Shown here: positions 3,185 through 63,879 of the stretch, piece after piece
Layout of the letters: the number at the start of each line of letters is the position of its first letter
Position numbering within the stretch: position 1 is the first letter of the stretch
Virus record (IMG/VR): IMGVR_UViG_3300023084_000009
Location: 1 to 64,000 of that record
Strand: one strand, 5' to 3'
Source: a virus
DNA length: 64,000 nucleotides
Notes under the pieces: generated by a model
Database searches by the model: none
What the model saw: only the letters and a program-made list of their open reading frames with translations
What the model was told of the DNA's origin: nothing
Position numbers and translations under genes: made by a program

Positions 3185-4648
3185 TTATTTATTAGAAATG
3201 ATCGATTCTAGAACCTTTTTATGTGATATTCTTCTAATTCTTCTCTTTTCATTTTCCAGATATTCATGTGTTGCCTTTGCCTGCATGTAAATTTCTTTAC
3301 CATCGATTTTTGCATCAAGAAACTCTTTGATAGACTCTTTATTAAACATTTCTAAACCGTTTGATACTTGTACAAAACTGTCTAATCCCCAGAAAGTTTT
3401 TTCTTTATAACAAGTTCTTGCATCAAGGAATTCTTCTCTGCATTTTTGTTCGAACGATTTTGTCCATTCAGTTTTATTTTCAGTCATATATCTCCAAAAC
3501 TCAGAATCTGTTCTATTGGTGCAATAATGGAGACAGATGAAATCAACAATATCTCTGTATAAAGTTCTATTACTCTTGTTTATAATTACTCTGTTATATG
3601 ATAAATTTTTTAATGTAGAATTTATTGTCATAAATTCTTGAATTTGTTGTATAATTATCTGAATGCCAGTTGCTTCTAGTGGTTCAATAAATCCGCTAGA
3701 CAATCCAACTGCCATACAATTACCAATATAGTAATTGTCATAGTATCCAGGTTTATACTTAATAACTCGATCTGTTTCTAGATTTACGTTAAAGTTTTTA
3801 AGTAACCACTCATTATATTTTTCTCTCGCTTCATCATCAGAAGTAAATTTTGAGGAGTACAAATATCCAGTTCCATATCTCTGACCTATTGGTATCTGCC
3901 ATATCCACCCATTTTCTGTTGCCTCACAGCAAGTATATGATGGAATATCTCTAAAATTATATGGAACTTGTTGTGGTATTGCTCTATCAATTGGTAAAGC
4001 ATCTGAGACATCTATCCACTCTGGATTTAGATGCTTGAAAAGAACAGTATTAAATCCAGATGCATCAACAAACAAATCTGCCTCTATTTTCTTTCCAGAT
4101 CTTAAGGTTAAACTTTTAATTTCTTTTCCATCACTATCAACCACTTCTACTACATCATCTATAAAATTGATAACATTTTGATATCCATTAATCATAAACT
4201 CAGAAAAAGCCTGAGTATCTACATGAAAGGCATATGCATAGTCATCAAATGGTTTGTTTGGAATATTTGTGGATGGATGATTATGAAGCATTCCACCATT
4301 GAATTTATTATTTGGTAATGAATAAATTGCACTAGTATTTGTATCTACATCAGAATTAACTTCAGCAAATCCATGAAAATAATCTTTCCCTGGTATCCAA
4401 TTTTTAAAATGAATACCAAGTTTTAACGTTGCTTTTCCGCCCAAATGTTTTAAAAATTCTTGAGTCGATATACCCATGTGAGCGAGAAGTAATCTGAAAA
4501 TAGGTGTTGTACTTTCTCCTACGGCAATATTTTTCTTACTAGCATCATATATGATTGAAATATCGACTAGATCTTTCCAATAATTTTTCATCATTGCAGC
4601 AGTTATCAATCCAGCAGTACCGGAACCAACGATTACAATTTTTTTCAT
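3185..4648 (-). CDS. Flavin-dependent tryptophan-halogenase family protein (full length)
   Basis: 487 residues, the usual length of the family. Seen: the FAD-binding G8-x-G-x-x-G13 loop, G44-E-S, K76 in T-L-K-L-G-I (aligned with the catalytic lysine of PrnA-type enzymes), the hallmark W248-x-W-x-I-P253, and F-I-E-P-L-E-A-T-G with the candidate catalytic glutamate. Known: the enzyme uses reduced FAD, O2 and halide to form a hypohalous-type species that halogenates aromatic substrates; marine cyanophage halogenases have been characterised. The substrate is unknown and no flavin reductase is seen in the window. It lies between an adhesin and a fibre gene, all in one direction, and so is probably late expressed. 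Confidence 0.9.
   Translation of the reverse strand: MKKIVIVGSGTAGLITAAMMKNYWKDLVDISIIYDASKKNIAVGESTTPIFRLLLAHMGISTQEFLKHLGGKATLKLGIHFKNWIPGKDYFHGFAEVNSDVDTNTSAIYSLPNNKFNGGMLHNHPSTNIPNKPFDDYAYAFHVDTQAFSEFMINGYQNVINFIDDVVEVVDSDGKEIKSLTLRSGKKIEADLFVDASGFNTVLFKHLNPEWIDVSDALPIDRAIPQQVPYNFRDIPSYTCCEATENGWIWQIPIGQRYGTGYLYSSKFTSDDEAREKYNEWLLKNFNVNLETDRVIKYKPGYYDNYYIGNCMAVGLSSGFIEPLEATGIQIIIQQIQEFMTINSTLKNLSYNRVIINKSNRTLYRDIVDFICLHYCTNRTDSEFWRYMTENKTEWTKSFEQKCREEFLDARTCYKEKTFWGLDSFVQVSNGLEMFNKESIKEFLDAKIDGKEIYMQAKATHEYLENEKRRIRRISHKKVLESIISNK
3186..3192 (-). promoter_or_regulatory. Late-type promoter motif (ATAAATA)
   Basis: ATAAATA on the minus strand 19 nt before the adhesin ATG at 3167, resembling the T4 late -10 element TATAAATA. 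It overlaps the stop region of the halogenase gene. Confidence 0.5.
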
Positions 4649-18738: not shown

Positions 18739-21700
18739 TTATACGATTACCCAGGTTCCATGAATTGTCATTGTGGATGCAAGAGAAACTGGTCCTGCAT
18801 TGAATGCATTAACACTTGTTGTTATATAGTATCCGTTACTGTTATTTAATGTATTTTCGAATGCCAAGAATCCATCACCAATATACAAACCAACAAACGA
18901 ATTTGCTATACCTACAAGATCACCTCTAGTTACATCATTAGTTTGTATTCCAACATTTCCAGTAAAGACAGTTGTTGTTCCACCACCAACTCCTCCACCT
19001 CCACCAGTGAGAGTTAGATCAAACCACAAGTCTCCATCACAAACATCAGATGTTGGTTCTACATCTGAGATATACTTCTTGCCATAAGCATTACTTGTTG
19101 TTTGAATACCAATATTATTAGATCCGTCCAGTGCTATTGGATTTGTGCATGAGTAATCATACTGAATGATTCCAGATACAGATCCAGAAACACCTGCAGT
19201 TCCTTGAGCACCTTCTGCACCTTGAGCACCTTGGACTCCTTGAGCACCTTGTGCTCCTTGAATTCCTTGACCCTGAATACCTTGGGCACCTTGAGTTCCT
19301 TGAGGACCAGCATCGCTAATGTTTATAGTTCCTGCCATGCCAGCATGGTATTCACAAACATAATACAAAGTACTTGGAGCATTTCCAGGAACTGTGAATG
19401 TTATGGTTCCTGTAGCTCTGTTTCCATCAACAGTTATGCCAGTCGTGTATTGATTAAGAGAATTATATGCGCCAGAACTAGTTTGAATTCGGAATGGGTG
19501 TCCCGAAGCATTCATATCAAAAATATAAGTAAATCCTCTTATTAATTCGAGTGTTGGATCATTTGCTCCGTCAATAACATAATCACTAGATCCATTATTG
19601 GTTACAGTAAATGTTCTGGCACCAGTTGTTCCAGTCGTTCCCTGAGTACCTTGTGCTCCTTGTATCCCCTGAATACCTTGAGTACCTTGACCGCCACCTC
19701 CACCTTGAATACCAGAAATACCTTGAATGCCTTGTATTCCTTGAATACCCTGAGCACCTTCACCAGTTGTACCTTGAGTACCCTGAGCACCATCAGTGCC
19801 TTGAGTACCTATAGATCCTTCATCACCAGAAATACCTTGTATTCCTTGTGTTCCTTGAACACCCTGACGACCTTGTATCCCCTGAATACCTTGAATACCT
19901 TGAGCACCGGTAGTACCTTGAGCACCGGTAGTTCCTTGAGTTCCAGTACCTACGGTTCCCTGAGTTCCAGCATCACCTGTTCTTGAGAAGGTAATGACAA
20001 TATCATCATTATTACTGAAAGAACCTAAACCAGAAAGATAATTACATGGGAACTTAAAGTATCCAGATGCTTCCGTATAAGAACCATCTATTTCAAAAGC
20101 AACAAACTCTGATTGTGGATCAGAAACTAGAGCGACTTTAAAATAACCCTTAATCGACGAATTAGATCCACCAATACTTCTTAGAAAGTCTTGTACATCC
20201 GTTCCAGGAGCATCTCGGTCATCAATATACATGTACGTTGCAACCGATAAAGTTGCACTATTAAACCTTAACTTTCCTTGACCAGGATCAGAATCTGACG
20301 TTATCGTATCAAAATTATAGTCTAGAGAAGCACCTCCAAAGACGCCGTCTCTACCCTGAGTTCCTTGAGAACCTTGTATAGCTTGTGGTCCTTGAAGACC
20401 CTGAGTTCCTTGGGCACCTTGAACTCCAAAGACTCCTTGTGTTCCATCAACGCCCTGTGTTCCAGTCCCACCTTGAATACCCTGTATTCCTTGGATACCT
20501 TGAATGCCCTGAGTACCATCAGATCCTTGAATACCGATTTCTCCTTGAATTCCCTGAGTACCCTGAGCACCTTGAGATCCATCAATACCTTGAGATCCAA
20601 TTGCACCTTGAGCACCTAACTCACCCTGAGCACCTGTAGTTCCTTGTGCTCCTTGAATACCCTGAATGCCTTGAATACCCTGAGTACCAAAAGCACCTTG
20701 AATACCTTGGATACCCTGAACACCAGGATTTCCCTGAATGCCTTGAGCACCAGATGCACCAACATCACCAGTTCTTGCAAAAGTAATAATAACGTCTTCA
20801 CTGTTACTAAATGAATTTGCGCCAGAAACTTTAGTACATGGAACTTTGAAATATCCAGTTGCTTCAACTATGGAACCATCAATAGTGAATATTGCAAAGT
20901 CCTCAGCATTTAATTTATTTGATACTCTGAAGTGACCCTTAATTGTAGATGTAGAATCATCAATAGTTCTTAAAAACTGTTGAATATCCGTTCCATTATC
21001 ATCTTGGTCATCAATGAATAATTGTGATGCTGAAGATAATGATGCATTATTAAACTTTAAATTTCCCTGTCCAGGATCATCATCTGTAACACTTGTGGAG
21101 AAAGTATAATCAAAAGTAGCTCCTCCAAAGTTACCCTCTATGCCCTGGATACCTTGAATACCCTGTGTTCCTTGAGTTCCCTGTTCTCCTTGAATACCCT
21201 GAATACCTTGAGAACCAAGACTACCAACATCACCTTGAGACCCTTGAATACCCTGTATTCCTTGAATACCCTGAAGACCAGCACCAGTGATACCTTGAAT
21301 ACCTTGAGTGCCATCAAGACCTTGGGTTCCAGTTTCACCTTGTATTCCCTGAACACCTTGATCTCCTTGGGATCCCTGAAGACCTAAGTCACCTTGAATA
21401 CCCTGAATACCTTGGGTTCCTTGAATACCTTGAATACCTTGGGTTCCTTGACGACCTTGAGTTCCTTGTGTCCCCTGAACCCCCTGAATACCTTGAATAC
21501 CTTGAATACCCTGAGCACCAGCATTCTTGTATGTAATTACATCAACAATTTCACCTGCATCTAGTGCTTCGGTTAGAGTTAATGTATCACCACCAGACAA
21601 TGTATATTCATTTGGAGTTAAATGAACACCATTCAAATACACATCTACGTTAGTTGTTAGATCATATGATATTGTGAATGATGTCTGACCTTGAGTTGCA

Positions 21701-22326
21701 ACAAAGTTATAAACAAATCTATTAAATCCAAGAACGTCTGTACTGATTGCCCAACTAACACCGATACCAGTAGATGATAGAACAGATCCAGCGGTTCCGA
21801 CATTTCCCCAATAATCGGTTATGGTGCTTGTCAGTTTTAATCCACCTTCAACATGAAGGGTTGCTTCCGGATTAGTTGTCCCGACTCCAACCGCCTTTGT
21901 TACTGGATTGAATACGAGAAGAGAATCTGCAGAAAAATCGTTTGCATCATTAAAGAGTATCTGTCCAGGAGCACCAGGAGCAAATACTGTTACTGTTGAT
22001 ATGTCTCCACTTGCTGATGCAGATACTGCTGCTCCTACAAAATTTAATTTCGATACACTATTCGCTGTTCCAACAAGTATCCCCTCATCAAAAACACTAA
22101 TACCACTAACTAGTGTTGCTGGTGGAAGTTCTTGCCAATATCTATCACTATCTTCACCATTTTCAATAGTTACGAGATTATAATATCTTGGAGAGAGTGG
22201 AATATTCTTTTCTCCAGGATATCCCAAATGAGGTTCTGCTTCACTTAGAGACAAATACTGATATCTGTCGGTTGAAATTGCCGACTGGGGAACTCTTTTT
22301 GCTCTATTACTAAGATATTTTGCCAT
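18739..22326 (-). CDS. Large collagen-like fibre with duplicated domain and a cupredoxin-like insert
   Basis: 1195 residues. The order is: N-terminal attachment and beta modules (to ~270), collagen-like G-I-Q/G-T-Q triplets, globular domain 1 of ~125 residues (D-P-G-Q-G-N-L-K-F), more collagen, a paralogous domain 2 (D-P-G-Q-G-K-L-R-F), more collagen, a cupredoxin-like domain at about 902-1006, collagen, then a C-terminal ~100-residue head. The cupredoxin-like part has H943 (G-H-P-F), C991, H994 and M997 (C-E-Y-H-A-G-M), a complete type-1 copper ligand set. No S74 or collar domain. Inference: a long flexible fibre with metal-binding or stabilising beads. Confidence 0.8.
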   Translation of the reverse strand: MAKYLSNRAKRVPQSAISTDRYQYLSLSEAEPHLGYPGEKNIPLSPRYYNLVTIENGEDSDRYWQELPPATLVSGISVFDEGILVGTANSVSKLNFVGAAVSASASGDISTVTVFAPGAPGQILFNDANDFSADSLLVFNPVTKAVGVGTTNPEATLHVEGGLKLTSTITDYWGNVGTAGSVLSSTGIGVSWAISTDVLGFNRFVYNFVATQGQTSFTISYDLTTNVDVYLNGVHLTPNEYTLSGGDTLTLTEALDAGEIVDVITYKNAGAQGIQGIQGIQGVQGTQGTQGRQGTQGIQGIQGTQGIQGIQGDLGLQGSQGDQGVQGIQGETGTQGLDGTQGIQGITGAGLQGIQGIQGIQGSQGDVGSLGSQGIQGIQGEQGTQGTQGIQGIQGIEGNFGGATFDYTFSTSVTDDDPGQGNLKFNNASLSSASQLFIDDQDDNGTDIQQFLRTIDDSTSTIKGHFRVSNKLNAEDFAIFTIDGSIVEATGYFKVPCTKVSGANSFSNSEDVIITFARTGDVGASGAQGIQGNPGVQGIQGIQGAFGTQGIQGIQGIQGAQGTTGAQGELGAQGAIGSQGIDGSQGAQGTQGIQGEIGIQGSDGTQGIQGIQGIQGIQGGTGTQGVDGTQGVFGVQGAQGTQGLQGPQAIQGSQGTQGRDGVFGGASLDYNFDTITSDSDPGQGKLRFNSATLSVATYMYIDDRDAPGTDVQDFLRSIGGSNSSIKGYFKVALVSDPQSEFVAFEIDGSYTEASGYFKFPCNYLSGLGSFSNNDDIVITFSRTGDAGTQGTVGTGTQGTTGAQGTTGAQGIQGIQGIQGRQGVQGTQGIQGISGDEGSIGTQGTDGAQGTQGTTGEGAQGIQGIQGIQGISGIQGGGGGQGTQGIQGIQGAQGTQGTTGTTGARTFTVTNNGSSDYVIDGANDPTLELIRGFTYIFDMNASGHPFRIQTSSGAYNSLNQYTTGITVDGNRATGTITFTVPGNAPSTLYYVCEYHAGMAGTINISDAGPQGTQGAQGIQGQGIQGAQGAQGVQGAQGAEGAQGTAGVSGSVSGIIQYDYSCTNPIALDGSNNIGIQTTSNAYGKKYISDVEPTSDVCDGDLWFDLTLTGGGGGVGGGTTTVFTGNVGIQTNDVTRGDLVGIANSFVGLYIGDGFLAFENTLNNSNGYYITTSVNAFNAGPVSLASTMTIHGTWVIV

Positions 22327-22994
22327 TATACCGTAGAGTTCTCTAGAATACTACAAATGAATTCCATTTGAAGTGGAGCAACTTGTCCCCCACTTACATA
22401 AGTGTGTGCAATTCCAGCAACAACACCAGCATCAGTTACAAAAGTTTTAGATGTTCCTACAGATCCTTCAATACTTGTGATTGTAAATGACTGTTGAGGT
22501 GCAGGGAAAATAGTTGTGTTTATTCCACTATTGGCTGGACACGTAAATCCTAACCCACTCATTGTTACTTGATCACCAACATCAAAATTATGTGCTACTG
22601 AAGTAACTACAGTCGTGATTCCAGTGTTATTATCATATACACAACTGGTAACTCCAACTGTTCCAGATTGGTTTCCTTCAATGATAATAGAGTCGGATAT
22701 AAGTGCTGTTCTTTCTAAGACTAATCTACCATCAATCATAATTAAAGAATCATTAGGAGGTACTTCCCCACCTTTAATGATTCTGATATTTCTTGTATTG
22801 CCTGATGTCTTTGTTGCTACACTTCTTCTTCTATGAGTAAAGGTTACTGATGGGTATGTGCCTATCCCAACATTGGCAACCTGTGCATATAGAAGAATAG
22901 CAGAAACACCTACGGGAGTAGTATAAACTGTTTGTTCCCCCGGAGCAACTGGAACAGCAATAGTAATAAATTTGTTTAGTGGTGCTACTGCCAT
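22326..22994 (-). CDS. Virion structural protein, beta-rich
   Basis: 222 residues. An N-terminal domain (F-I-T-I-A-V-P-V-A-P-G-E-Q-T-V-Y) is followed by a module (T-G-I-T-T-V-V-T-S-V-A-H-N-F-D-V-G-D-Q-V) also found in the giant structural protein at 6557-11824. Its stop overlaps the next fibre ATG by 1 nt. Probably a small connector or baseplate-fibre protein; no specific T4 equivalent is recognised. Confidence 0.6.
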   Translation of the reverse strand: MAVAPLNKFITIAVPVAPGEQTVYTTPVGVSAILLYAQVANVGIGTYPSVTFTHRRRSVATKTSGNTRNIRIIKGGEVPPNDSLIMIDGRLVLERTALISDSIIIEGNQSGTVGVTSCVYDNNTGITTVVTSVAHNFDVGDQVTMSGLGFTCPANSGINTTIFPAPQQSFTITSIEGSVGTSKTFVTDAGVVAGIAHTYVSGGQVAPLQMEFICSILENSTV

Positions 22995-22995
22995 A

Positions 22996-25950
22996 TTATC
23001 TCAAAGCAAGTATTAACGGTGTGACTTCTGCTTGAATTGCTCTACTAAAATCTCTTCCTCGGATTGTGGATGTTGTTTGATCAACTTGAATTCCTGCGCC
23101 AATGTCAAAATTACCTTTTTGGTCGGTGCTAGTGAATGGAATTTGTGCTCCATCTCTAGCAACAATTTCATTCTCTTTTATAGGAACAGCACCTTGGAAG
23201 GGTGTTGAGGTATTTATATCTATACCCGTACCAATATATTCGAATGAATGGCTGCTGGTCAGAATTCTACTGATTCTTCTTATTTCAACTGCATCATTCT
23301 CAAACAATTCAAAAGGAATAAATTCATTGAATGTTACTGTTGTAATTCCAGTTACTGTTGGATCAGTTGCTTCAGATACAGTAAAGTATGATGGAGTCAT
23401 TACAGCAGTTGCAAGACCAGTGTTACCCTCAATATCAACAACAATGTTTTGTGTTGGTAGATAGCATCTACCTGTGCTAACAACATCGACAGCAGTAATT
23501 GTACCAGCAGCACTTACTGTTGCACTACCTTGAGCGATGATACCTTGTGGTCCTTTTGGAGTTAAAGTTCCATCAAAGTCTCTAATAATTACATTCGGTG
23601 GAGATGTTTCACTGAATCCAGATCCACCATCGATAATTTCTATCCTATCTAATTCCTTCAAAGGTGCAGTGATAACTCCACTGCCGACTGCATCTGGATA
23701 ATTGTCCAGGTTAATTTTGAACCATAGTGATTGACCATCATATGGTTTTCTTGCCACTGAGGCATAATCAACTACATTTTTGAATGTAATAGTATCCAGT
23801 TCTGCGGTTGTATCTGCATTTACTGCACCAGTAAATTCAGTCGATCCCAATCCAACAGCAACTAGACCAAAGTTACCGAATGATGAGTTTGAGTTTGTAA
23901 GATCACACTGTCCTCCACTAGAAGCAAAAATACCAATATCGCAGTTAATTGTGAATATTGAAACCAACTGTGCATATCCATTATTTGTGATCGAAACACC
24001 AATACCACCTTGATTGTACTGTGTGAATGAATCACAAACCATAGATTTCAAATTAGCACCAATTGTTGCTGCTACAGCATCATCACCATTAATTCTCATA
24101 CCAATACTTCCTGTCATGAAGTTGGTACAGTTTCGAATATATGGAGATCTCCATCTACCAGTTTCACCCTCTGTAGCTGGTCCAGGATCGGTAAATCCAC
24201 TAACAGCACTAGTAGGTCCTGATGGTGGAGGGAATGCCACTGCAGCACCACCAGTGTTAGCGACACTAACTCCAGCATCATTTGGTTGTCCGTCAGGATT
24301 CTTACATGCGAAGTTAAGATTCTCTATTAAGCATCCTCTTCTAACATGGAATATATCTTGTTCTAAATTCTGAGGTCTAATGGTGACCAATCTCAAATCT
24401 TGTCCTACAACAGAAACATCACTTCTTAGACCTATAGGATTATTCTCATCATATACTCCAGATCTTATGAAGATTGTATCTCCAGGTTGTGCAATAGATG
24501 CAGCAGCACCAACAGTTCTCTTTGCATCACCTTCCAAATAACCAGTATTTGCATCATTACCATCTACAGTAACCCAAATAGCATTTTCAGTTTCAACACC
24601 AGGTGGTCTCCAAGATACTCCACTACCAACAGAAGAAAGACGATAATCTGTTTTACCTGCTGCCACACTTCCATTGACATCAATCAAGGTTGAGTCTAAT
24701 TCAAGTGATCCTATAAGTTTTGTACTTCCACCAACATTGAGGTTTTCTTCAATACCAACACCACCCTCAACAACTAGTGATCCAGTGTCCTTATCTGAAG
24801 ATGAAGTTGTTGAATTTAGAACAACATCACCATCAACATCAAGAGTATTGTTTAGAGTCGTTGCTCCATCAACATCGAGAGTATTGTTTAGAGTCGTTGC
24901 TCCATCAACATCGAGAGTATTGTTTAGAGTCGTTGCAGAACTTACATCCAGAGTTGAATTTAATATTGTTTCATTATTGACAAAGAGAGTTGAATTCAAT
25001 GTGGTTGCTGCACCAACACTTAACTCAGCCGTGAGTGTTGTATCTCCACTAACATCAAGTGTTGATTGAAGTTCTGTTGTTCCATCAACGTATAAAGTTG
25101 AGTTTAATGTAGTTGGACTATCAACATCTAGTGTCCCTGTAAGATCTGTGGCACCACTAACATCTAGGTTTCCATTTAAATTTGTATTTCCAATTACATC
25201 TAGAGCATTTGTAGGTGTATCATTATTAATACCTACATTTGAATTTCTAAAAATATTACCATTTTCTGTGGTTCCCCAATAATCATATGCAAGAACATCT
25301 GCAATGTTTGGGTTTAAAGGACTTTGGAATGCTTGAACAGTATCTGTACTTGTTCCTGCTGTATTAACTCCTGCAATAAAGTTCAGTCCTCTATAGGAAG
25401 ATGGACCAACCAAGACTCCATCATTATAGACAAAGATACCTTCAGTGAATGCAGGTTCAAATTCTGTCCATTTAATACCTTGAGCATCTTTTGTTAGGAA
25501 TGCACCAACTGGTCCAGGACTATTTGTAGCATCATAAATATTACTCTTAATTTTAACACTACCATCAACATCTAATTTTTGTTCTGGTTGTGTGCTTCCA
25601 ATTCCAACCTTTCCACTAACAGTGACGTTACCAACAACATCTAGTTCTTGTGTTGGAGTCTGAGATCCTACTCCAACCTTTCCTTCGTCGGATGCTCTTA
25701 AAACTGTTCCACCAACACCGACATCCAGTCTCTTTCTGACTGTAAGAATACCAACTTCACCCAACTCCAAATTTACATCTGAAGTAAAAGTTGCTATTCC
25801 AGAAAATAAAGAGTTACCATTTACCTTTAGATCACCAACTTCTAGTGGTCCAGATGTTGTAAAATCATAATTTAGTTTTCCGTAAATCGTCAGATTTTCT
25901 ACAAAATCATCACCAGAACCGAAAGTATATTTGTTTGGAGCTAATCCCAT
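22996..25950 (-). CDS. Tail-fibre/structural protein with right-handed beta-helix
   Basis: 984 residues. The N-terminal ~430 are repetitive short modules (T-L-D-V-D-G-A-T-T-L), including three perfect 36-bp tandem DNA repeats. Then comes a pectin-lyase-like beta-helix (W-V-T-V-D-G-N-D-A-N-T-G, D-T-I-F-I-R-S-G-V-Y-D-E), then beta-domains ending D-F-S-R-A-I-Q-A-E-V. No polysaccharide-lyase catalytic residues can be assigned. Likely a baseplate-attached fibre; the gene follows the hub genes. Confidence 0.7.
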   Translation of the reverse strand: MGLAPNKYTFGSGDDFVENLTIYGKLNYDFTTSGPLEVGDLKVNGNSLFSGIATFTSDVNLELGEVGILTVRKRLDVGVGGTVLRASDEGKVGVGSQTPTQELDVVGNVTVSGKVGIGSTQPEQKLDVDGSVKIKSNIYDATNSPGPVGAFLTKDAQGIKWTEFEPAFTEGIFVYNDGVLVGPSSYRGLNFIAGVNTAGTSTDTVQAFQSPLNPNIADVLAYDYWGTTENGNIFRNSNVGINNDTPTNALDVIGNTNLNGNLDVSGATDLTGTLDVDSPTTLNSTLYVDGTTELQSTLDVSGDTTLTAELSVGAATTLNSTLFVNNETILNSTLDVSSATTLNNTLDVDGATTLNNTLDVDGATTLNNTLDVDGDVVLNSTTSSSDKDTGSLVVEGGVGIEENLNVGGSTKLIGSLELDSTLIDVNGSVAAGKTDYRLSSVGSGVSWRPPGVETENAIWVTVDGNDANTGYLEGDAKRTVGAAASIAQPGDTIFIRSGVYDENNPIGLRSDVSVVGQDLRLVTIRPQNLEQDIFHVRRGCLIENLNFACKNPDGQPNDAGVSVANTGGAAVAFPPPSGPTSAVSGFTDPGPATEGETGRWRSPYIRNCTNFMTGSIGMRINGDDAVAATIGANLKSMVCDSFTQYNQGGIGVSITNNGYAQLVSIFTINCDIGIFASSGGQCDLTNSNSSFGNFGLVAVGLGSTEFTGAVNADTTAELDTITFKNVVDYASVARKPYDGQSLWFKINLDNYPDAVGSGVITAPLKELDRIEIIDGGSGFSETSPPNVIIRDFDGTLTPKGPQGIIAQGSATVSAAGTITAVDVVSTGRCYLPTQNIVVDIEGNTGLATAVMTPSYFTVSEATDPTVTGITTVTFNEFIPFELFENDAVEIRRISRILTSSHSFEYIGTGIDINTSTPFQGAVPIKENEIVARDGAQIPFTSTDQKGNFDIGAGIQVDQTTSTIRGRDFSRAIQAEVTPLILALR
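24831..24936 (-). repeat. Three tandem 36-bp coding repeats
   Basis: Period of exactly 36 bp at 24831, 24867 and 24903, nearly identical, each encoding the 12-residue unit L-N-N-T-L-D-V-D-G-A-T-T of the fibre shaft. Copy number is likely to vary by slippage or recombination. Confidence 0.9.
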
Positions 25951-25960
25951 TTGTTTTCTC

Positions 25961-26512
25961 CTATCCCGCTAAACTTAAAACGGTTTTTAAAATATCGAAC
26001 GGTTTTGAGAATATTGAAGCATTTCCTAATGCTAAAATGTTTGTATTCTGCATCAGAAGAGCTGATAGTTTTCCTTCTTTAACATATGGCATTGGAACAT
26101 CATCTGCTAGCATTCTTATATTTTTTGTAGCACCCTCTTCCTGATATCCAAGTCTAATATTTCTTCCCTGAATTACAACTTCCTCTTCACCCTCGATAAC
26201 AATTTGAGTTGCCTTAAACGTTATAATTCCATCTTCGGCAGTGAATTCAATACCTCCTTTATGAGCAGTAAAAAGACAAGCAACATCCTCTGATTTAATT
26301 TTATCTCCACATTCAAACTGAAACTTACTGTCAGTATTAAATCTAGCAATACCACTACCTTCATGAAAACTTTGGTTATATCTCAAACCATCAGCATTGA
26401 CAGAAACTAACTGATATGCCGTTTTTCCAGCAAATCCTACAACTGTACTTCCAGTTTCAACATATAGTTTTGGACCGAAAGACTCTAGATATCTTGGTTT
26501 ATTATCGCTCAT
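25961..26512 (-). CDS. Hub-associated beta-helical spike-like protein
   Basis: 183 residues from the ATG at 26512 (4-nt overlap with the upstream stop; an in-frame TTG lies 9 nt further upstream). The middle has regularly spaced hydrophobic beta strands (I-I-T-F-K-A-T-Q-I-V-I-E-G, E-V-V-I-Q-G-R-N-I-R-L) like the triple-stranded beta-helix of gp5/VgrG needles. The C-terminus is helical. Inference: it may supply the needle part missing from the gp5-like OB protein at 28471-29289. Confidence 0.55.
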   Translation of the reverse strand: MSDNKPRYLESFGPKLYVETGSTVVGFAGKTAYQLVSVNADGLRYNQSFHEGSGIARFNTDSKFQFECGDKIKSEDVACLFTAHKGGIEFTAEDGIITFKATQIVIEGEEEVVIQGRNIRLGYQEEGATKNIRMLADDVPMPYVKEGKLSALLMQNTNILALGNASIFSKPFDILKTVLSLAG

Positions 26513-28443
26513 GTTACACAATCAATAGAAGTAACTATTTCTGTTTGTGGTGGTTGTACAGTAGTCATAATTGGTCTCAATACAGCACCATATCCAGTCT
26601 CCGTTCTAATATTTAGTTTTGGTAGGTCAGTATAACGAATTGGTTTCTTAATTCTAACCGCAGTAATTCTTCCACCAGAAACATCCATCTCCAAATCATC
26701 ATTCTCTAAATCATCCCCATCATCATAATTATCACCAGGATCTTCAACAATAACATCTCTAATGTAAGCATCTTCTTCATCACCTGCTGGATAGTTTTCA
26801 CCTTCGGTCATAATGATCACTGATGTTATTTGACCATATGTTGGTGAATTTACATTAGTATCAATCACTGTCTTGCCATAGCAACCATAGCCTTGATCAC
26901 AATTGTCATCAAAGGAAACAAATGGGGCATCCTTATAATCAGTTCCAGGATCAGTAAGTTCTACACCAATAATACTTGCGGTTCTCTTAATGTCTCCACC
27001 AATATTATCAGTATCAAATTCTCTCATAAACTTACCAAGAATAACCTTTCCTGCTCCACCAACACCATCGCCACCAAAGAAGGTCACCTTTGGTGCTCCA
27101 CAAGCAAATACATTTCCGGTATTACAATTTGATCCACCAATTCCTTCATCTGTTCCTGCTCCAGATCCAAAAATATCCCATTGACCATATTCATTTTCAA
27201 AGTCATTAATACCTCTTCCAACAGTCTCTGACAAGGAGAAATTATTAATTATATCAAGTGCATCTTCTTGTTCTTTTTCTCCTTTGTCTTTCTTTACACC
27301 CCTATCAATAATGTATTTTCTACTTGGTGGACACTTCTCTTTCTCACCACACTTAAGGAAACTTAGAACTTTTCTAATTGTTTTAACAGCACCAACTAAG
27401 AAATCTTTTACCTTAAAAATCGTACCAAGAATGTTACTAATTGGAGCAAGCATTGGAGTTATGGCAGAGTCAATAAAATTAATAATCTTCGTTGTTAAAG
27501 CACCAATAAACTGCTGAACGGCACAGGTGGGGACGTTAAGAACATTTCTAACCATTCCCATAATAAGATCTTCAATTACACTTGTGAGTGCCTGTGTAAC
27601 TTTTGATGCTAAACAAGCAAGAGCCTTATTGAGTAACTTAACTGGATCTAATAAGTCTTCTTCTATACCAACAATTTTTAGTAGTGCCTTCTCAGGAGCA
27701 GCGATCGTATTGAATATTTGTTGTGTTAATGCTGCCAGTCCACCACTTATCCATTTGTTTATTGCTTTTGATAACTTACCAATCATTGTCCCAACAAAAG
27801 TGCTAGCTGCCCTACCAATCTGTCCAACAACTGTCTTAAGTTCTTGTGGGAAATTTAAAATCTTTGAACCAAGTTTTGTAATTTTATTGAAGAAATTTTC
27901 AAGATGTGCTTCTACTTTGGCGAAGAAGTTATCCTTACAGGGGTCTGCGAGGAGAATTGTTTTCCCTGTTGTGTCTGAAAGTGCTGGGCAAGTTGTTTCC
28001 TTTCCACTCTTAGCATTTTTTTGTCTTTGTTTTTCTCTTAGAGATTTTAGTAATTGTTCTGGACTTTGTTTGTTGAATGGAATTTGAACAGTAGAATTGA
28101 GTTCAGCACAAAGATCTGGGTAACTGGCACAGATAATTTTTTTAACCTCTGGATCCAATACTCCAAGTTCCTCCATCTCTTTGGCATAATCTATAAACTC
28201 TTGAGATGGTGTTTCTTGTACTGTTGGTCCAGTTTGTTCTGGTTCTGGTTCTGTTGCTTCTAATTGTGCTAGTGTTTTTCCTTCTGTTTCTGCCAGTTGA
28301 TTTAAAAAGGAGTCTGTTAATGTTCGTACATTAGATCCACCTCTGTCTCTTTCTTCAAATTTTCCATTAGGAAGTTGAATATACCAAACACCACCCTCTC
28401 TTACATATACCCTACCACTATATTCTAGGAAAACATCTTCCAT
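26509..28443 (-). CDS. Virion structural protein of the hub/tape region
   Basis: 644 residues. Begins with a small domain (Y-V-R-E-G-G-V-W-Y-I-Q-L-P-N-G), then a Glu/Pro-rich linker, a helical middle (residues ~180-360) with several hydrophobic and amphipathic stretches like a tape-measure protein, and a C-terminal beta-rich region with repeated D-P-G-x-x-Y motifs (D-P-G-T-D-Y-K-D-A-P, D-P-G-D-N-Y-D-D-G). Strong RBS GAGGAGG and a late motif lie upstream. The exact equivalent in T4 is not recognised. Confidence 0.6.
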   Translation of the reverse strand: MEDVFLEYSGRVYVREGGVWYIQLPNGKFEERDRGGSNVRTLTDSFLNQLAETEGKTLAQLEATEPEPEQTGPTVQETPSQEFIDYAKEMEELGVLDPEVKKIICASYPDLCAELNSTVQIPFNKQSPEQLLKSLREKQRQKNAKSGKETTCPALSDTTGKTILLADPCKDNFFAKVEAHLENFFNKITKLGSKILNFPQELKTVVGQIGRAASTFVGTMIGKLSKAINKWISGGLAALTQQIFNTIAAPEKALLKIVGIEEDLLDPVKLLNKALACLASKVTQALTSVIEDLIMGMVRNVLNVPTCAVQQFIGALTTKIINFIDSAITPMLAPISNILGTIFKVKDFLVGAVKTIRKVLSFLKCGEKEKCPPSRKYIIDRGVKKDKGEKEQEDALDIINNFSLSETVGRGINDFENEYGQWDIFGSGAGTDEGIGGSNCNTGNVFACGAPKVTFFGGDGVGGAGKVILGKFMREFDTDNIGGDIKRTASIIGVELTDPGTDYKDAPFVSFDDNCDQGYGCYGKTVIDTNVNSPTYGQITSVIIMTEGENYPAGDEEDAYIRDVIVEDPGDNYDDGDDLENDDLEMDVSGGRITAVRIKKPIRYTDLPKLNIRTETGYGAVLRPIMTTVQPPQTEIVTSIDCVT

Positions 28444-28467
28444 TTTTTCTCTACCTCCTCGTGCTGA

Positions 28468-28474
28468 TATTTAT
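28468..28474 (-). promoter_or_regulatory. Late-type promoter motif (ATAAATA)
   Basis: ATAAATA (GAATAAATATC) 25 nt before the ATG at 28443, followed by the strong RBS GAGGAGG. Confidence 0.5.
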
Positions 28475-29289
28475 TCTTCAAAAAGACTTGTAATTACCCC
28501 ACCGCCAGGATATTGTTGACCAAGACTACTATCCGCACGATACGGTCTAAATTGAAGATTTTTTAACCTCATAGCTTTTGATAATTCCTCTGATGGTGGC
28601 TCGCTCAGGCGAGGTCGTCCAATGGATTCTCCAGAATTAATTTTATTCAATACATCAGTGGAATTTGTAATTTGTTTGGCAACAGCCTTACTTTGTGGTT
28701 TAGACACAGTATCAACACCTTGTCCGGGAGTAATGCCAGTTTGCTTTTCAATTAAATCAACTGTCGCTTTTTTTCTTTCTTCATCTTTCTTACCACCATC
28801 ACCTTTTGGTGGTTGTTTTTTTGTTAATACTCCAGATACAACATTGTCCTGTTGATTATATTCTTGCTGTCCCAGTCCTCCAGGTTTTACATCTTGATCA
28901 TATCCACTCTTAACTTCAAATCTTCCAGATCCATACTTAACTCCAGAAGTTCTTCCCAGAACATTGGTTATCATTGGAATTTGTCTTTTATCACCATCCA
29001 AAAATCTACCAAGAACAACATCACCTGGAGATATTTTTGGTGTTCTTAGTCTTCCTCCAGCACCAGAACCATCACAAGTTCCGAGAGCACATATGGCATA
29101 TGTAATTTCTTCGTCTTTGATTGATTGATCAACTGGATGATGACCCATTATAGCAACTCTATATCTGTATCCCCATCCAGCAAGACCTGATAATTGATCT
29201 TTTTGTGAATCTCCAGATAGAACAATGCCAAGGAACTCATTAGTTCCAGCACCGTAAAAATTTAGACTAGAAGATGAAAAAGCGTCCAT
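28471..29289 (-). CDS. Baseplate hub subunit, gp5-like OB-fold protein lacking lysozyme
   Basis: 272 residues. The N-terminal ~120 match the gp5 OB-fold: F-L-G-I-V-L-S-G, Y-R-Y-R-V-A-I-M-G-H-H-P, P-K-I-S-P-G-D-V-V-L-G-R-F-L-D-G, Q-I-P-M-I-T-N-V-L-G-R. The rest is a Lys/Glu/Gln-rich linker and a short C-terminal segment. T4 gp5 (575 aa) also carries lysozyme and a needle; neither is present here. It overlaps the gp27-like gene by 1 nt, as expected for a gp5-gp27 pair. Confidence 0.75.
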   Translation of the reverse strand: MDAFSSSSLNFYGAGTNEFLGIVLSGDSQKDQLSGLAGWGYRYRVAIMGHHPVDQSIKDEEITYAICALGTCDGSGAGGRLRTPKISPGDVVLGRFLDGDKRQIPMITNVLGRTSGVKYGSGRFEVKSGYDQDVKPGGLGQQEYNQQDNVVSGVLTKKQPPKGDGGKKDEERKKATVDLIEKQTGITPGQGVDTVSKPQSKAVAKQITNSTDVLNKINSGESIGRPRLSEPPSEELSKAMRLKNLQFRPYRADSSLGQQYPGGGVITSLFEE

Positions 29290-30614
29290 TAGCTATTTTT
29301 AGTAAAATGTAATCCGTATGAATCTCTAATTAAAACAATAGATGTAACTGATTTGTTTGGTTCAAAGTGATGGCAAAGACTTTTTATTATATATTCTCCA
29401 CTCTGACGTTCATCTACACCTTGTTCTTTGTTCGTTGATGTACTCTCCACATTCATTTTAATTTTTCTTCCTGCTTCAAGATCCAAATTACAAGGAACAG
29501 AAATAGAATGAGATTGGGAGAACATTACATTATATCTTGTTGTTCCGGCGGCATAGTATAGTTCTGGACTATTATTAATTCCCAAATTTGCCTCATCAGC
29601 ACCAACATCTAGAATGGCAGTTTGAACTCTGTGATATCTCTTTCCAGCATTGAAGTCTGATGCTAATATTCCAGGAAACTTTGGTTTCTTAGCAATAGAA
29701 GAAAACTTTGGATCATTAACTACAGAAATATCAATCTCTTTAAACTGTAGGTTTGATGGATTAAAGAAAATATTTTTAGTAGCATATACACCAGATCTGA
29801 TTTGTGACAACAAACTTTGGTCTTTCGTTGTTGTAAGAGACGATACTTTAAAATTATTACTGGAGTTTTTTAATTCAACAGAAGATTGTACGGCACCATT
29901 GTAATTATATTCATTTCCATATCTCTGCTGTTTTAGCAACTTATCAGCAGAAACATAATGAAACTTCGACTTAGTTTCATAGATGAAATATCCAGGATTT
30001 GATACGCTAGAAGGAACCGTTGCCTTTGCCAACATAAACAAAATATCAAATGGTCTCTTATTCATACCAGTAAATGAATATGAATTTGCCGAAGGATCTA
30101 GGTCAATTTTGTTTTTGTCAATAGTAAGAACTTCTGTGAGAATTTTTTGAACAGAGTCTGTAATTTTCCCTTTGTAGTGTTTTGTGATTCTTGTAGTTTC
30201 ATTCAACCACCCAATGCGAGAAATAAATTTAAGAATTATTGTTTCACTTGTAGAACTTTTATCAAGAATACTCACATCTGTAACATAAAGTCTCTTAAAT
30301 GGGTCGGTTGAAAAGTCTAGAAGATTAGTCTCATTACCAACACCCGCCCTAATCTTTGCTGTAATTACACATCCAGCACTAAGTGGTAAGAAGTTATAAA
30401 GAGATCCACTTCTCTGTTGATTATCTTCTGTGGATTTGGCAGCATCAATCGTGCTTACAATAACAACATTTCCAGTAATGTAAGGCGAGAGGATAGTTTC
30501 ATAATAGTCGAATCTTGTAACTCTAAACTTACCACTATAAGCATCCACAGCATTAGAACCATCCTGTGAGATTATCTTGAATTCTTCGTATTTAAAGTCT
30601 TGTGCTTCTAACAT
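29289..30614 (-). CDS. Baseplate central hub protein, gp27-like
   Basis: 441 residues; T4 gp27 is 391. The sequence carries tail-hub features (F-R-V-T-R-F-D-Y-Y-E-T-I-L-S-P-Y-I-T-G near the N-terminus; S-G-E-Y-I-I-K-S-L-C-H-H-F near the C-terminus, then a final V-L-I-R-D-S-Y-G strand). Known: gp27 forms the trimeric ring linking tail tube and gp5 spike. Position next to the OB-fold protein and the M23-type protein supports this. Confidence 0.75.
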   Translation of the reverse strand: MLEAQDFKYEEFKIISQDGSNAVDAYSGKFRVTRFDYYETILSPYITGNVVIVSTIDAAKSTEDNQQRSGSLYNFLPLSAGCVITAKIRAGVGNETNLLDFSTDPFKRLYVTDVSILDKSSTSETIILKFISRIGWLNETTRITKHYKGKITDSVQKILTEVLTIDKNKIDLDPSANSYSFTGMNKRPFDILFMLAKATVPSSVSNPGYFIYETKSKFHYVSADKLLKQQRYGNEYNYNGAVQSSVELKNSSNNFKVSSLTTTKDQSLLSQIRSGVYATKNIFFNPSNLQFKEIDISVVNDPKFSSIAKKPKFPGILASDFNAGKRYHRVQTAILDVGADEANLGINNSPELYYAAGTTRYNVMFSQSHSISVPCNLDLEAGRKIKMNVESTSTNKEQGVDERQSGEYIIKSLCHHFEPNKSVTSIVLIRDSYGLHFTKNS

Positions 30615-47407: not shown

Positions 47408-48577
47408 TTGAAAATAGTAATTGTTGGTGCGGGTAATGCTGGGTGTCTTACGGCATTACATTATGCTTGGCATACAAGAAAAGATGAATCTATAGAAATA
47501 GAATTAAGATATAATCCAAACATTCCCACAGAAAAAGTAGGACAGGCAACAGTACAAGAACCACCGAAACTTCTATGGGCAGCAACAGGATTTGATTGGT
47601 ACAGCAATCCAATTCATGCAACGTTTAAAACTGGAATACTGTATGAGAATTGGGGAAAGAAGCATGAAAACTGGTTCCACCCATTCTCTGCGGACCAAAT
47701 GGCAATGCACTATTGTCCAAAAGAGATGCAAGATTATGTGCTAGGTTGTGGTCTATTCAAAGTCGTAGAAGATGATGTAAAAGATATATCAAACATTGAT
47801 GCTGATTACATCTTTGATTGTAGGGGAAAACCAGAAGATTACGCCGAGTATGATCTTCTTAATCACCCAATCAATTCATGTATTCTCGCAAAACCAAATT
47901 GGGACACTGAGAAAGTTTCTTGGAGTCGACATGTGGCAACTCCAGATGGATGGACATTTGTAATTCCAACGGTTAAGGAGTCACCATCAAATCCATACTG
48001 CGTTGGATATTCTTATAATGACAAGATAACTTCAAAAGAAGAAGCAGAAAAGAATATGTTGGATTTGTTTGATGTAGAGATAACCAAGCATGTATCCTTT
48101 AAGAATTACATCGCTAAAAATCCAGTTATAGATGAAAGAATTATCTTGAATGGAAATAAATTCTTCTTCTTTGAACCACTAGAGTCAACATCAGTTCAAA
48201 GTTATCTTGTATGGGCTAGAAAAGTTTATGATGTAATCATTGATAAGAAAACTACCTGGCAGAAAGCAACAGAAGATATGATGAATTACTTAGATGAAAC
48301 CAGAAACTTTATTCTCTGGCACTATCACTTTGGTTCAAAGTATGATACTCCTTTCTGGGACTATGCCAAGACAATAACATTCAAAGATAAAAAGTTTGGT
48401 GCAATCTTAGAGTACATAAAGACAACAAACCACCATGACATTCTACCAGAAAGTTATGGTGGTTCGACCTATGATAGTTCAAAGTATTCTCAGTGTTATC
48501 TATGGAGTCTTAAGAACTGGTATGATGGTATGACTATGCGTCAGGATCATCCTCATCAGGTGGCTCTGTTAAAATGA
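47408..48577 (+). CDS. Flavin-dependent halogenase-like protein, short divergent form
   Basis: 389 residues, about 100 fewer than the first halogenase, on the opposite strand to nearly everything nearby. Seen: G8-x-G-x-x-G FAD loop, K74 in T-F-K-T-G-I (catalytic lysine position), W182-T-F-V-I-P187 in place of the usual W-x-W-x-I-P, F-F-E-P-L-E-S-T-S, and G-Q-A where G-E-A/S is normal. No ATG exists near the N-terminus; TTG at 47408 gives the expected M-K-I-V-I-V-G start. Substrate unknown; activity is plausible but less certain. Confidence 0.75.
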   Translation: MKIVIVGAGNAGCLTALHYAWHTRKDESIEIELRYNPNIPTEKVGQATVQEPPKLLWAATGFDWYSNPIHATFKTGILYENWGKKHENWFHPFSADQMAMHYCPKEMQDYVLGCGLFKVVEDDVKDISNIDADYIFDCRGKPEDYAEYDLLNHPINSCILAKPNWDTEKVSWSRHVATPDGWTFVIPTVKESPSNPYCVGYSYNDKITSKEEAEKNMLDLFDVEITKHVSFKNYIAKNPVIDERIILNGNKFFFFEPLESTSVQSYLVWARKVYDVIIDKKTTWQKATEDMMNYLDETRNFILWHYHFGSKYDTPFWDYAKTITFKDKKFGAILEYIKTTNHHDILPESYGGSTYDSSKYSQCYLWSLKNWYDGMTMRQDHPHQVALLK

Positions 48578-61602: not shown

Positions 61603-61609
61603 TATTTAT
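61603..61609 (-). promoter_or_regulatory. Late-type promoter motif (ATAAATA)
   Basis: ATAAATA (TAATAAATATTTC) 19 nt before the ATG at 61584, touching the upstream stop codon. Confidence 0.45.
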
Positions 61610-63879
61610 TAGAGAGCAACTGCATATGCAATTGCTATGGCTTCAGAAACTCCACCACCACCGCCACCTGCTCCAGAAGGACCTTGAACACCCTGAGCAC
61701 CTTGAGCACCACCAGTGTCACCCTGAATACCTAAAATACCTTGAGCACCCTGAACGCCAGCGCCCGTAATACCTTGAACACCCTGAGTACCATATGTACC
61801 CTGAAGACCTGTTATACCCTGTGTTCCTTGAGTACCAGCACCTGTAGTACCTTGAGCACCTTGAGCACCATCAATACCTTGAATTCCCTGAGTGCTGCCG
61901 CCACCACCACCAGAGAATATCGAACCATTTTGATAAAGGTCCCCAGTGAAATATATGTCTCCAGCAACAGTTACACCAGTACCAATAGTTTCAAGTTTCT
62001 TAGTATCCTTGTGATAAAGTTCGGCACTTCCAGATCCAGTGAACACTGCCGTTCTTCCACTGCTACCAAGATAAGTACCAGATACGCCACCACTTGAGAT
62101 AACTACATCACCAGAGGTTCCACCAGAATCATTAGACTGCAGATGCAAATCATTACTAGCATTAGCAGATACCTTGAGTGCTGATGATTGTGGAGTTAAT
62201 CTCCCTTTTAGAGAACCACTAAATTTGACATCTAAAGCACTATTAGTGGTAGATCTATCAATAATAACTCTATCACTAAATGTAGAAAGACCAGTTGCAG
62301 TTACACCACCAGTAATACTTACACCAGCACCAGTTGTTCTGATTCTACGAGTATTATCATAATAAAGAATACACGATCCATCATCAATATACTGTGCTTT
62401 TATTTCCGTTCCTGCTTGATTATTGAATATAATCTGATTTGCCTTAATAACTAAAGACCCGCTGGCATCTTCTTCCGAGAAGACAGTGTGACCACCTTGG
62501 GCTGCTGGCAATTTATAAATTTGCATTCGATCGCCAGCACTAGATCCAATGTTCAAAACATTGTTATTATTTCCATCTAGTGTTCTAACAACAATATTAT
62601 TACCATTGGTATCTAAATCACCACCGAGTTTTGGTGTAGTATCTTCAAAAATACTAGAGATTCCAGATCCACCACCGCCACCACCACTTGAAACATTAGA
62701 ACTGGTGAAGACCGCATTACCCATATAATCATGGGCTGAGCACTGATAATGTAGAACTGCTGGTGTGGTATCTGTGATTGTTATCTCAGTATATGCACCA
62801 GAACTTCCTGCAGTTCCTGCTGTTGTTACGTTAGTTGTGTATTGAGTGGTCTTGTCTGCAGTGGTATAAAAACGTAGAGGGTGAGTACTATTAGAAGAAT
62901 GACTTTGATCAAATCTATAAGTTCTACCAGGCTGAAGATATAAGAAAGGAGATTCAAAACCAGTCTCTACATTCCTTCTTAAATAATAAGCACTAGAAGA
63001 TCCTTGGCCACTATATCTGTGATTACCACTCTTAGATTGTACAGATACATTAAAAATTACAGTACCACTGTTATGTTTTGCTGCAATAAATTCTGAATAT
63101 GATAGTTGAGAAGCTGATGCTATGCCAGTTACATTAATTCCATCAAATGTAGTTTCTAATTTTATCGATGATGAAGTGGGGTCTCCATGATAAAGTGTAA
63201 CTCCATTATCATTATCAATAACTAATCTCTGTTCATAAAGTCCTACACCTTGTCCAGGAGTAGCTCCCCGCCCAAAGGTAAACGTACCGCCTCTACCATA
63301 TAATTCCCAGTCACTATTTCCACCGGTTTGATATACATGTGCGGTTCGACCAACGCCTAGAATTTTACCATGAACAAGAGAATCCGGAATTAAAAATGAA
63401 AGTCCATTACCAAATGTAGAAACACCAGAGACATTTAATTGCTCAAAATTACCATCTAGAGCATAAGCAGTCCTCCACTTATTACTGCTAGTACCAAAAT
63501 CTACTTGCTTATTTACTTGTGGAGATAAAACTCCTTGGTCTGATAGACTAATTAATGCTGTGGAAGTTCCGTTATATTTTCTTGCAATATTTAATGCAAC
63601 TGACGATCCAGAAGTATTCGGAACTGTAAAAAGAAATCCGTTTGTAGCAGGACCAGAAACGTCTCTGGTTAGTTCAATTGCAGGACCAACTGATCTAAAA
63701 AATGTAGTGACACCAGAAACATTTAATCCAACAACACTCGCATCACCCTTAACATCGAGTTTTGCTATTGGATTTGTCGTACCTATACCAATATTTTTAC
63801 TGGCAGACGTGGCAATTATACTTGCACCGACACCAACGTCTAAACCATCTTTTACTATAAAATTCTTATAATCGGCCAA
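61609..63879 (-). CDS. Fibre protein with cupredoxin-like domain and collagen-like end
   Basis: 756 residues. Beta modules ([13 protein letters not shown]), a cupredoxin-like domain at about residues 265-395 with H333 (T-H-P-L-R-F), C380, H383 and M386 (C-S-A-H-D-Y-M), then more modules, a collagen-like stretch (~90 residues) and a short hydrophobic end ([10 protein letters not shown]). The His-Cys-His-Met set matches the one in 18739-22326, spacing differing by one residue. No chaperone domain. Confidence 0.75.

Follow-up and report, generated by a model that had tools for sequence, protein, structure and literature searches.

The question raised by this locus was whether a short domain inserted between the collagen-like stretches of a viral tail fibre is a genuine copper protein module, and what such a module might do in a phage particle. 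The window, i.e., the whole 64-kb stretch of DNA that was analysed, is a portion of a 94-kb uncultured virus record. The gp32 gene of this phage placed it near P-SSM2 and S-SKS1, and by this placement the source phage is among the T4-like cyanophage-type viruses.

The fibre gene and its inserted domain

The open reading frame at 18739-22326 of the minus strand, on which all features of this gene lie, starts with ATG and encodes a protein of 1195 amino acids. The protein was matched by the Pfam Collagen family (E 5.6e-55, 7 stretches) and by tail-fibre families of PHROG, and the gene was surrounded by tail and baseplate genes. Both the Gly-x-y repeats and the tail gene cluster that mark a phage collagen-like tail fibre were thus present. 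The collagen-like repeats were located at residues 270-403 (21118-21519) and 520-666 (20329-20769), each with one interruption, at residues 795-904 (19615-19944; 795-857 and 860-904), and at residues 1007-1050 (19177-19308; 1007-1021 and 1024-1050). The last two stretches lie directly N-terminal and directly C-terminal of the domain under study, respectively. Another type of insert, of ~120 residues, was observed twice in the same fibre, each time between collagen stretches: residues 401-519 (20770-21126) begin with GGATFDYTF, and residues 664-783 (19978-20337) begin with GGASLDYNF. Additionally, the window phage encodes two tryptophan halogenases (PHROG 2928), at 3185-4648 (minus) and 47408-48577 (plus).

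The domain itself comprises residues 903-1006 (~104 amino acids, 19309-19620). The predicted copper ligands are H943 (19498-19500), C991 (19354-19356), H994 (19345-19347) and the axial M997 (19336-19338). An earlier note had described H943 and a C991-x2-H994-x2-M997 motif within a cupredoxin-like domain lying between collagen stretches and containing the strands ITFTVP and STLYYV. The translated reading frame confirmed these residue positions exactly, both strand sequences were found in the domain, and Gly-x-y repeats abutted residues 903-1006 at both ends. His, Cys and Met residues are scarce in the 1195-residue fibre. The order of the residues was that of a type-1 copper site (H...C-x2-4-H-x2-4-M, with an axial Met or Gln). 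The domain was not a soluble periplasmic or lumenal electron carrier, being embedded between the collagen repeats of the fibre.

The structure prediction and the comparison with plastocyanin that the earlier note had suggested pointed to the same fold. A family alignment (A1) of 35 rows was built from relatives gathered from IMG/VR, and AlphaFold2 supplied with this alignment modeled residues 903-1006 with a pLDDT of 97.6, a pTM of 0.89 and nine strands. In the model, H41 was placed right before a strand, C89 ended a strand and M95 stood right before the last strand, a placement that is cupredoxin-like. A Foldseek search of the model against the PDB returned cupredoxins or cupredoxin-domain proteins in 50 of 50 cases among the matches listed. 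The top matches were AcoP (5.7e-6) and rusticyanin (1.3e-5), and copper nitrite reductases, multicopper oxidases and plastocyanins were also recorded.

The A1 profile, when compared with PDB sequences, matched copper proteins throughout, among the matches listed, including amicyanin (1.4e-5), plastocyanin (1.8e-5) and rusticyanin (8e-5). The Cys, His and Met residues were in register with the copper ligands of the solved proteins. The first His was shifted by one column in the alignment to amicyanin, whereas a sub-family profile (A3) brought it into line with a ligand His of plastocyanin (1b3i). The strand topology of the model and the alignment to solved copper sites speak, indirectly, against the four residues being far apart, the outcome that the earlier note had named as a refutation. 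Single relatives matched the NCBIfam rusticyanin model TIGR03095 in five cases (best 4.6e-7) and a plastocyanin model (4.1e-5), and 9 of the 35 relatives matched Pfam PF00127, Copper-bind (best 2.8e-6). The window copy on its own matched no blue-copper family in Pfam, including PF00127 at its cut-off, or in NCBIfam, and gave weak matches only against PDB sequences (azurin, E 0.4). The homology to blue-copper proteins was therefore carried by the family profile and not by the window sequence on its own. The cupredoxin superfamily is recognized by a Greek-key beta-sandwich of about seven to eight strands and by sequence homology, with which the nine-strand model and the profile matches agree. 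Based on the modeled fold and the profile matches, the domain is almost certainly a cupredoxin.

Two further observations were made during these searches. Weak matches to Pfam PF25489, a plant-named family (At5g54830-like domain), were obtained for 10 of the 35 relatives (best E 0.001), which suggests that this family may also be cupredoxin-like. The BFVD fold matches included predicted 'beta-sandwich proteins' of Pithovirus-like and Marseillevirus-like giant viruses (A0A481Z6J5, A0A481YVH3 and others) with E-values of about 1e-9 to 1e-6.

The same phage carries a second cupredoxin-bearing tail protein of 756 residues (61609-63879, minus strand), which has collagen-like repeats near its C-terminus and matched the tail fibre family phrog_30742 (2.9e-58). 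Its predicted domain (62692-62991, minus strand; profile E 5.7e-23) has the putative ligands H333, C380, H383 and M386. The two copies were 35% identical and had the four ligand residues in common. A single-sequence structure prediction of the second copy was poor (pLDDT 56) and was set aside.

Ligand conservation and occurrence among phages

The four ligand columns ranked with the most conserved columns of the alignment. Seven columns of A1 were invariant (G29, H41, P42, Y87, C89, H92 and M95), four of them being the ligands. The patterns of the first scan for relatives had covered the ligands, so the scan was repeated with the ligand-free patterns GFTYIFD and VPxxAPxxL only. The His-Cys-His-Met set was found in 54 of 55 distinct domains recovered in this way, the remaining one being truncated. 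A second group, found with the other copy of the phage, contained 172 domains with His-Cys-His-Met and 2 with His-Cys-His-Gln among 174 complete domains. Among 60 representatives of below 70% identity (median 36%), the first His, the Cys and the second His were each kept in 60 and the Met in 58. All these counts refer to distinct sequences and not to independent evolutionary events. It was concluded that the hundreds of relatives in marine phage tails nearly all keep the four residues predicted to hold copper.

The axial Met was replaced in complete domains by Gln only. Gln is the natural alternative to the axial Met in stellacyanins. Relatives with such a stellacyanin-like C-x2-H-x2-Q loop were L076 (frame +0, aa 1077-1200) and L086 (frame +1, aa 1516-1631). 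The loop spacing also varied (C-x2-H-x3-M and C-x4-H-x2-M), with all ligands kept. In one group of paralogues, carried by large phage proteins, the C..H..M loop was missing and the first His was mostly lost, while the remaining domain sequence was still recognisable; the ligand residues thus seem dispensable for the fold. The weak scores of the single window sequence were the sole point in favour of the motif having arisen by chance in a low-complexity fibre. This explanation was refuted by the predicted fold and the conservation results and its probability is close to nil. The cupredoxin reading of the earlier note was thus borne out by the modeled fold, by the profile homology, in which Cys, His and Met line up with known copper ligands, and by the near-invariant ligands.

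A tblastn search located relatives in 373 phage records. Almost all of these came from phages of marine Synechococcus and Prochlorococcus, and the rest from one phage of Actinomycetia and a few of Methylophilales or Pelagibacter. In the Kyanoviridae, the domain was typically the C-terminal part of a gp9/gp10-like baseplate protein, and it was found in tail proteins of podoviruses as well. The contexts varied widely, from a fibre insert to a gp9 C-terminus and a protease-like protein. Collagen repeats flanked the domain on both sides in 64 of 166 distinct viral domains, so the architecture of the window fibre is recurrent. As judged from these sequences, the cupredoxin domain is a common part of marine phage tail proteins and no one-off. 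It was absent from the cyanophages S-PM2 and S-CREM2, which were also examined; therefore, it is not essential for the T4-like type of cyanophage tail.

Some gene neighbourhoods were recorded alongside. In the Actinomycetia phage DSL-LC01, collagen genes, a gene of a cupredoxin-domain protein and a tryptophan halogenase gene stood side by side. Genes of PiuC and 2OG-Fe(II) oxygenase adjoined tail fibre genes in P-SSM2 (21535-29837) and S-PM2 (159000-196280), and such neighbours could hint at hydroxylation of fibre residues.

Cellular relatives were observed too. The domain was present in 8 of 198 sampled genomes of the order Flavobacteriales, where some matches are probably phage sequence in the assemblies. 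In Flavobacteriales and in the myxobacterium Paraliomyxa it was found, with intact ligands, at the C-terminus of predicted surface lipoproteins. A tree of 62 rows placed the cellular copies near the phage domains and left the order of phage and bacterial origin unsettled. A reading as the auxiliary metabolic gene petE (plastocyanin) was set aside, as the domain is an insert of a fibre and no free gene.

Proposed role of the domain in the virion

A cupredoxin-bearing long-tail-fibre protein of cyanophage S-SCSM1 carries the record note 'virion protein', and the virion proteome of S-SCSM1 has been determined (PMC9602691). The virion proteome of S-CREM2 has also been measured (PMC10665884), and for those genes that were compared, the same note in the S-CREM2 record agreed with the entries of the published table. 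Taken together, these data make it likely that the domain protein of S-SCSM1 is in virions. The S-CREM2 proteome was ruled out as a direct proof of the domain in virions, this phage being without it.

Since nearly all relatives keep the four ligands, the virions of these phages probably carry a metal site, which would most likely be a copper site. Considered part by part, the domain very likely binds a metal in the virion, and the metal is probably for the most part copper held in a type-1 site. It was proposed, as a likely overall reading, that the domain with its intact type-1 set (His, Cys, His, Met) serves as a building block of the tail fibre, with a predicted copper site that, less certainly, would be filled after lysis and would make the domain rigid. 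Phage assembly takes place inside the host cell, whose cytoplasm contains very little free copper. The site would for this reason probably be empty in the copper-poor host cell, and copper would enter it upon lysis or in seawater. Cupredoxins are stabilised by copper binding, and a metal lock acting after lysis was proposed on this ground. The filled site would lock the small beta-sandwich into a stiff, outward-facing knob flanked by flexible collagen triple helices; a trimeric fibre, as other collagen-like fibres are, would have three such sites. Any redox chemistry would be secondary, and the main role is, on balance, expected to be structural or adhesive and not electron transfer. A metal lock hardening an exposed knob would be the simplest role that suits a fibre insert, a baseplate C-terminus and a podovirus fibre alike.

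Other roles were weighed against this proposal. The copper could be a redox-active switch or sensor, a change in its redox state at the host surface, in light or by reactive oxygen altering the fibre or triggering adsorption. The full type-1 set with an axial Met, for which Gln is the sole substitute, is the pattern that redox cupredoxins keep, and several marine cyanomyoviruses adsorb in a light-dependent manner (PMC2984593). However, no electron-transfer partner was evident, the contexts of the domain differ widely, and the domain can be no general requirement, since it is absent from the well-studied marine cyanomyovirus S-PM2. A redox switch is quite improbable. The same absence weakened the domain as the cause of light-dependent adsorption, S-PM2 not being necessarily light-dependent itself. 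It was also considered that the copper-loaded domain is bound by metal uptake systems of the host outer membrane or mimics a cupredoxin lipoprotein of the host surface and so binds the partner of that lipoprotein. Such bait has a precedent in the iron of phage tail fibres, for which the same use has been proposed (PMC11705849). In its favour, too, the domain's relatives in Flavobacteriales and a myxobacterium belong to surface lipoproteins. An adhesin of this kind is nevertheless improbable, as the domain occurs beyond fibres, on gp9/gp10-like baseplate proteins, and is shared by phages of cyanobacteria and one recorded phage of Actinomycetia, hosts with very different envelopes.

Finally, the four residues could hold another metal (Zn, Fe or Ni) or none, the scaffold being a structural module. 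Apo-cupredoxins readily take up Zn, and the paralogue group that lacks the site has been retained in large phage proteins. Such a role is unlikely in view of the strict Met with Gln as its sole substitute, which is hard to square with Zn or with a purely structural function.

The copper lock favoured here might have consequences on a larger scale. It is conceivable, if somewhat doubtful, that a large share of marine T4-like phages carry many type-1 copper sites on their baseplates and fibres, loaded after lysis and tuning adhesion or stability. If this were true, phage particles would form an oceanic copper-binding pool, infectivity would be linked to dissolved copper, and the finding would bear on the speciation of copper in seawater. 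Since the cultured phages that carry the domain include Syn9, P-SSM2 and P-SSM4, the question of copper in virions can be tested at once.

Comparison with known systems

No literature coupling a cupredoxin with a bacteriophage virion or tail fibre was found, and a search on cyanophages and cupredoxins returned a paper on Borgs and nothing on virions. Family databases label the domain-bearing proteins merely as tail proteins. The cupredoxin fold is old, and its use in virions as a metal module with a conserved site appears to be new.

Amicyanin, plastocyanin and pseudoazurin (PF00127, TIGR02657, TIGR02656) share with the phage domain the cupredoxin fold and the order H...C-x-x-H-x2-4-M. The C-x2-H-x2-M spacing is the loop length known for amicyanin; it is identical in the window domain, consistent with the alignment of the A1 profile. 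Amicyanin and plastocyanin are free periplasmic or lumenal electron carriers, whereas the window domain lies inside a phage fibre. In the phage domain the first His is followed by Pro, in both of these proteins by Asn, so the second-shell bonding must differ. The best fold matches, rusticyanin (TIGR03095) and AcoP of Acidithiobacillus, are proteins of about 150 amino acids that belong to a respiratory chain, while the phage domain has about 104 and is not respiratory. The surface lipoproteins of Flavobacteriales and Paraliomyxa carry a member of the phage domain's family (profile E as low as 1e-37) and have the same four ligands, but they are cellular lipoproteins with other N-terminal parts, and no collagen repeats were seen beside their domain.

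Within phages, the closest counterparts were the gp9/gp10-like baseplate wedge proteins of Kyanoviridae (PHROG 677), in which positions 308-410 of the 412-position profile, its C-terminal end, corresponded to the cupredoxin domain. The ligands were intact in proteins of this type from Syn9, P-SSM4, Syn33, S-SSM5, S-RIM2, ACG-2014a and ACG-2014d. These proteins are baseplate connectors annotated without copper, whereas the window protein is a collagen-like fibre. Under the present reading, the annotation of the PHROG 677 C-terminus, and that of further tail domains now called hypothetical, would be revised.

Metal sites of phage tails are known for iron, in fibres with HxH motifs, and a self-contained blue-copper fold with a strictly conserved ligand set was not found described for any virion in the literature searched. 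The T4 gp37-type fibres and the alterophage R22Y have metal sites within tail fibres (PMC11705849), as is predicted for the window fibre. Their HxH sites, however, are short His motifs that bind iron, whereas the predicted site of the window fibre is formed by a self-contained fold with a mixed His-Cys-His-Met set.
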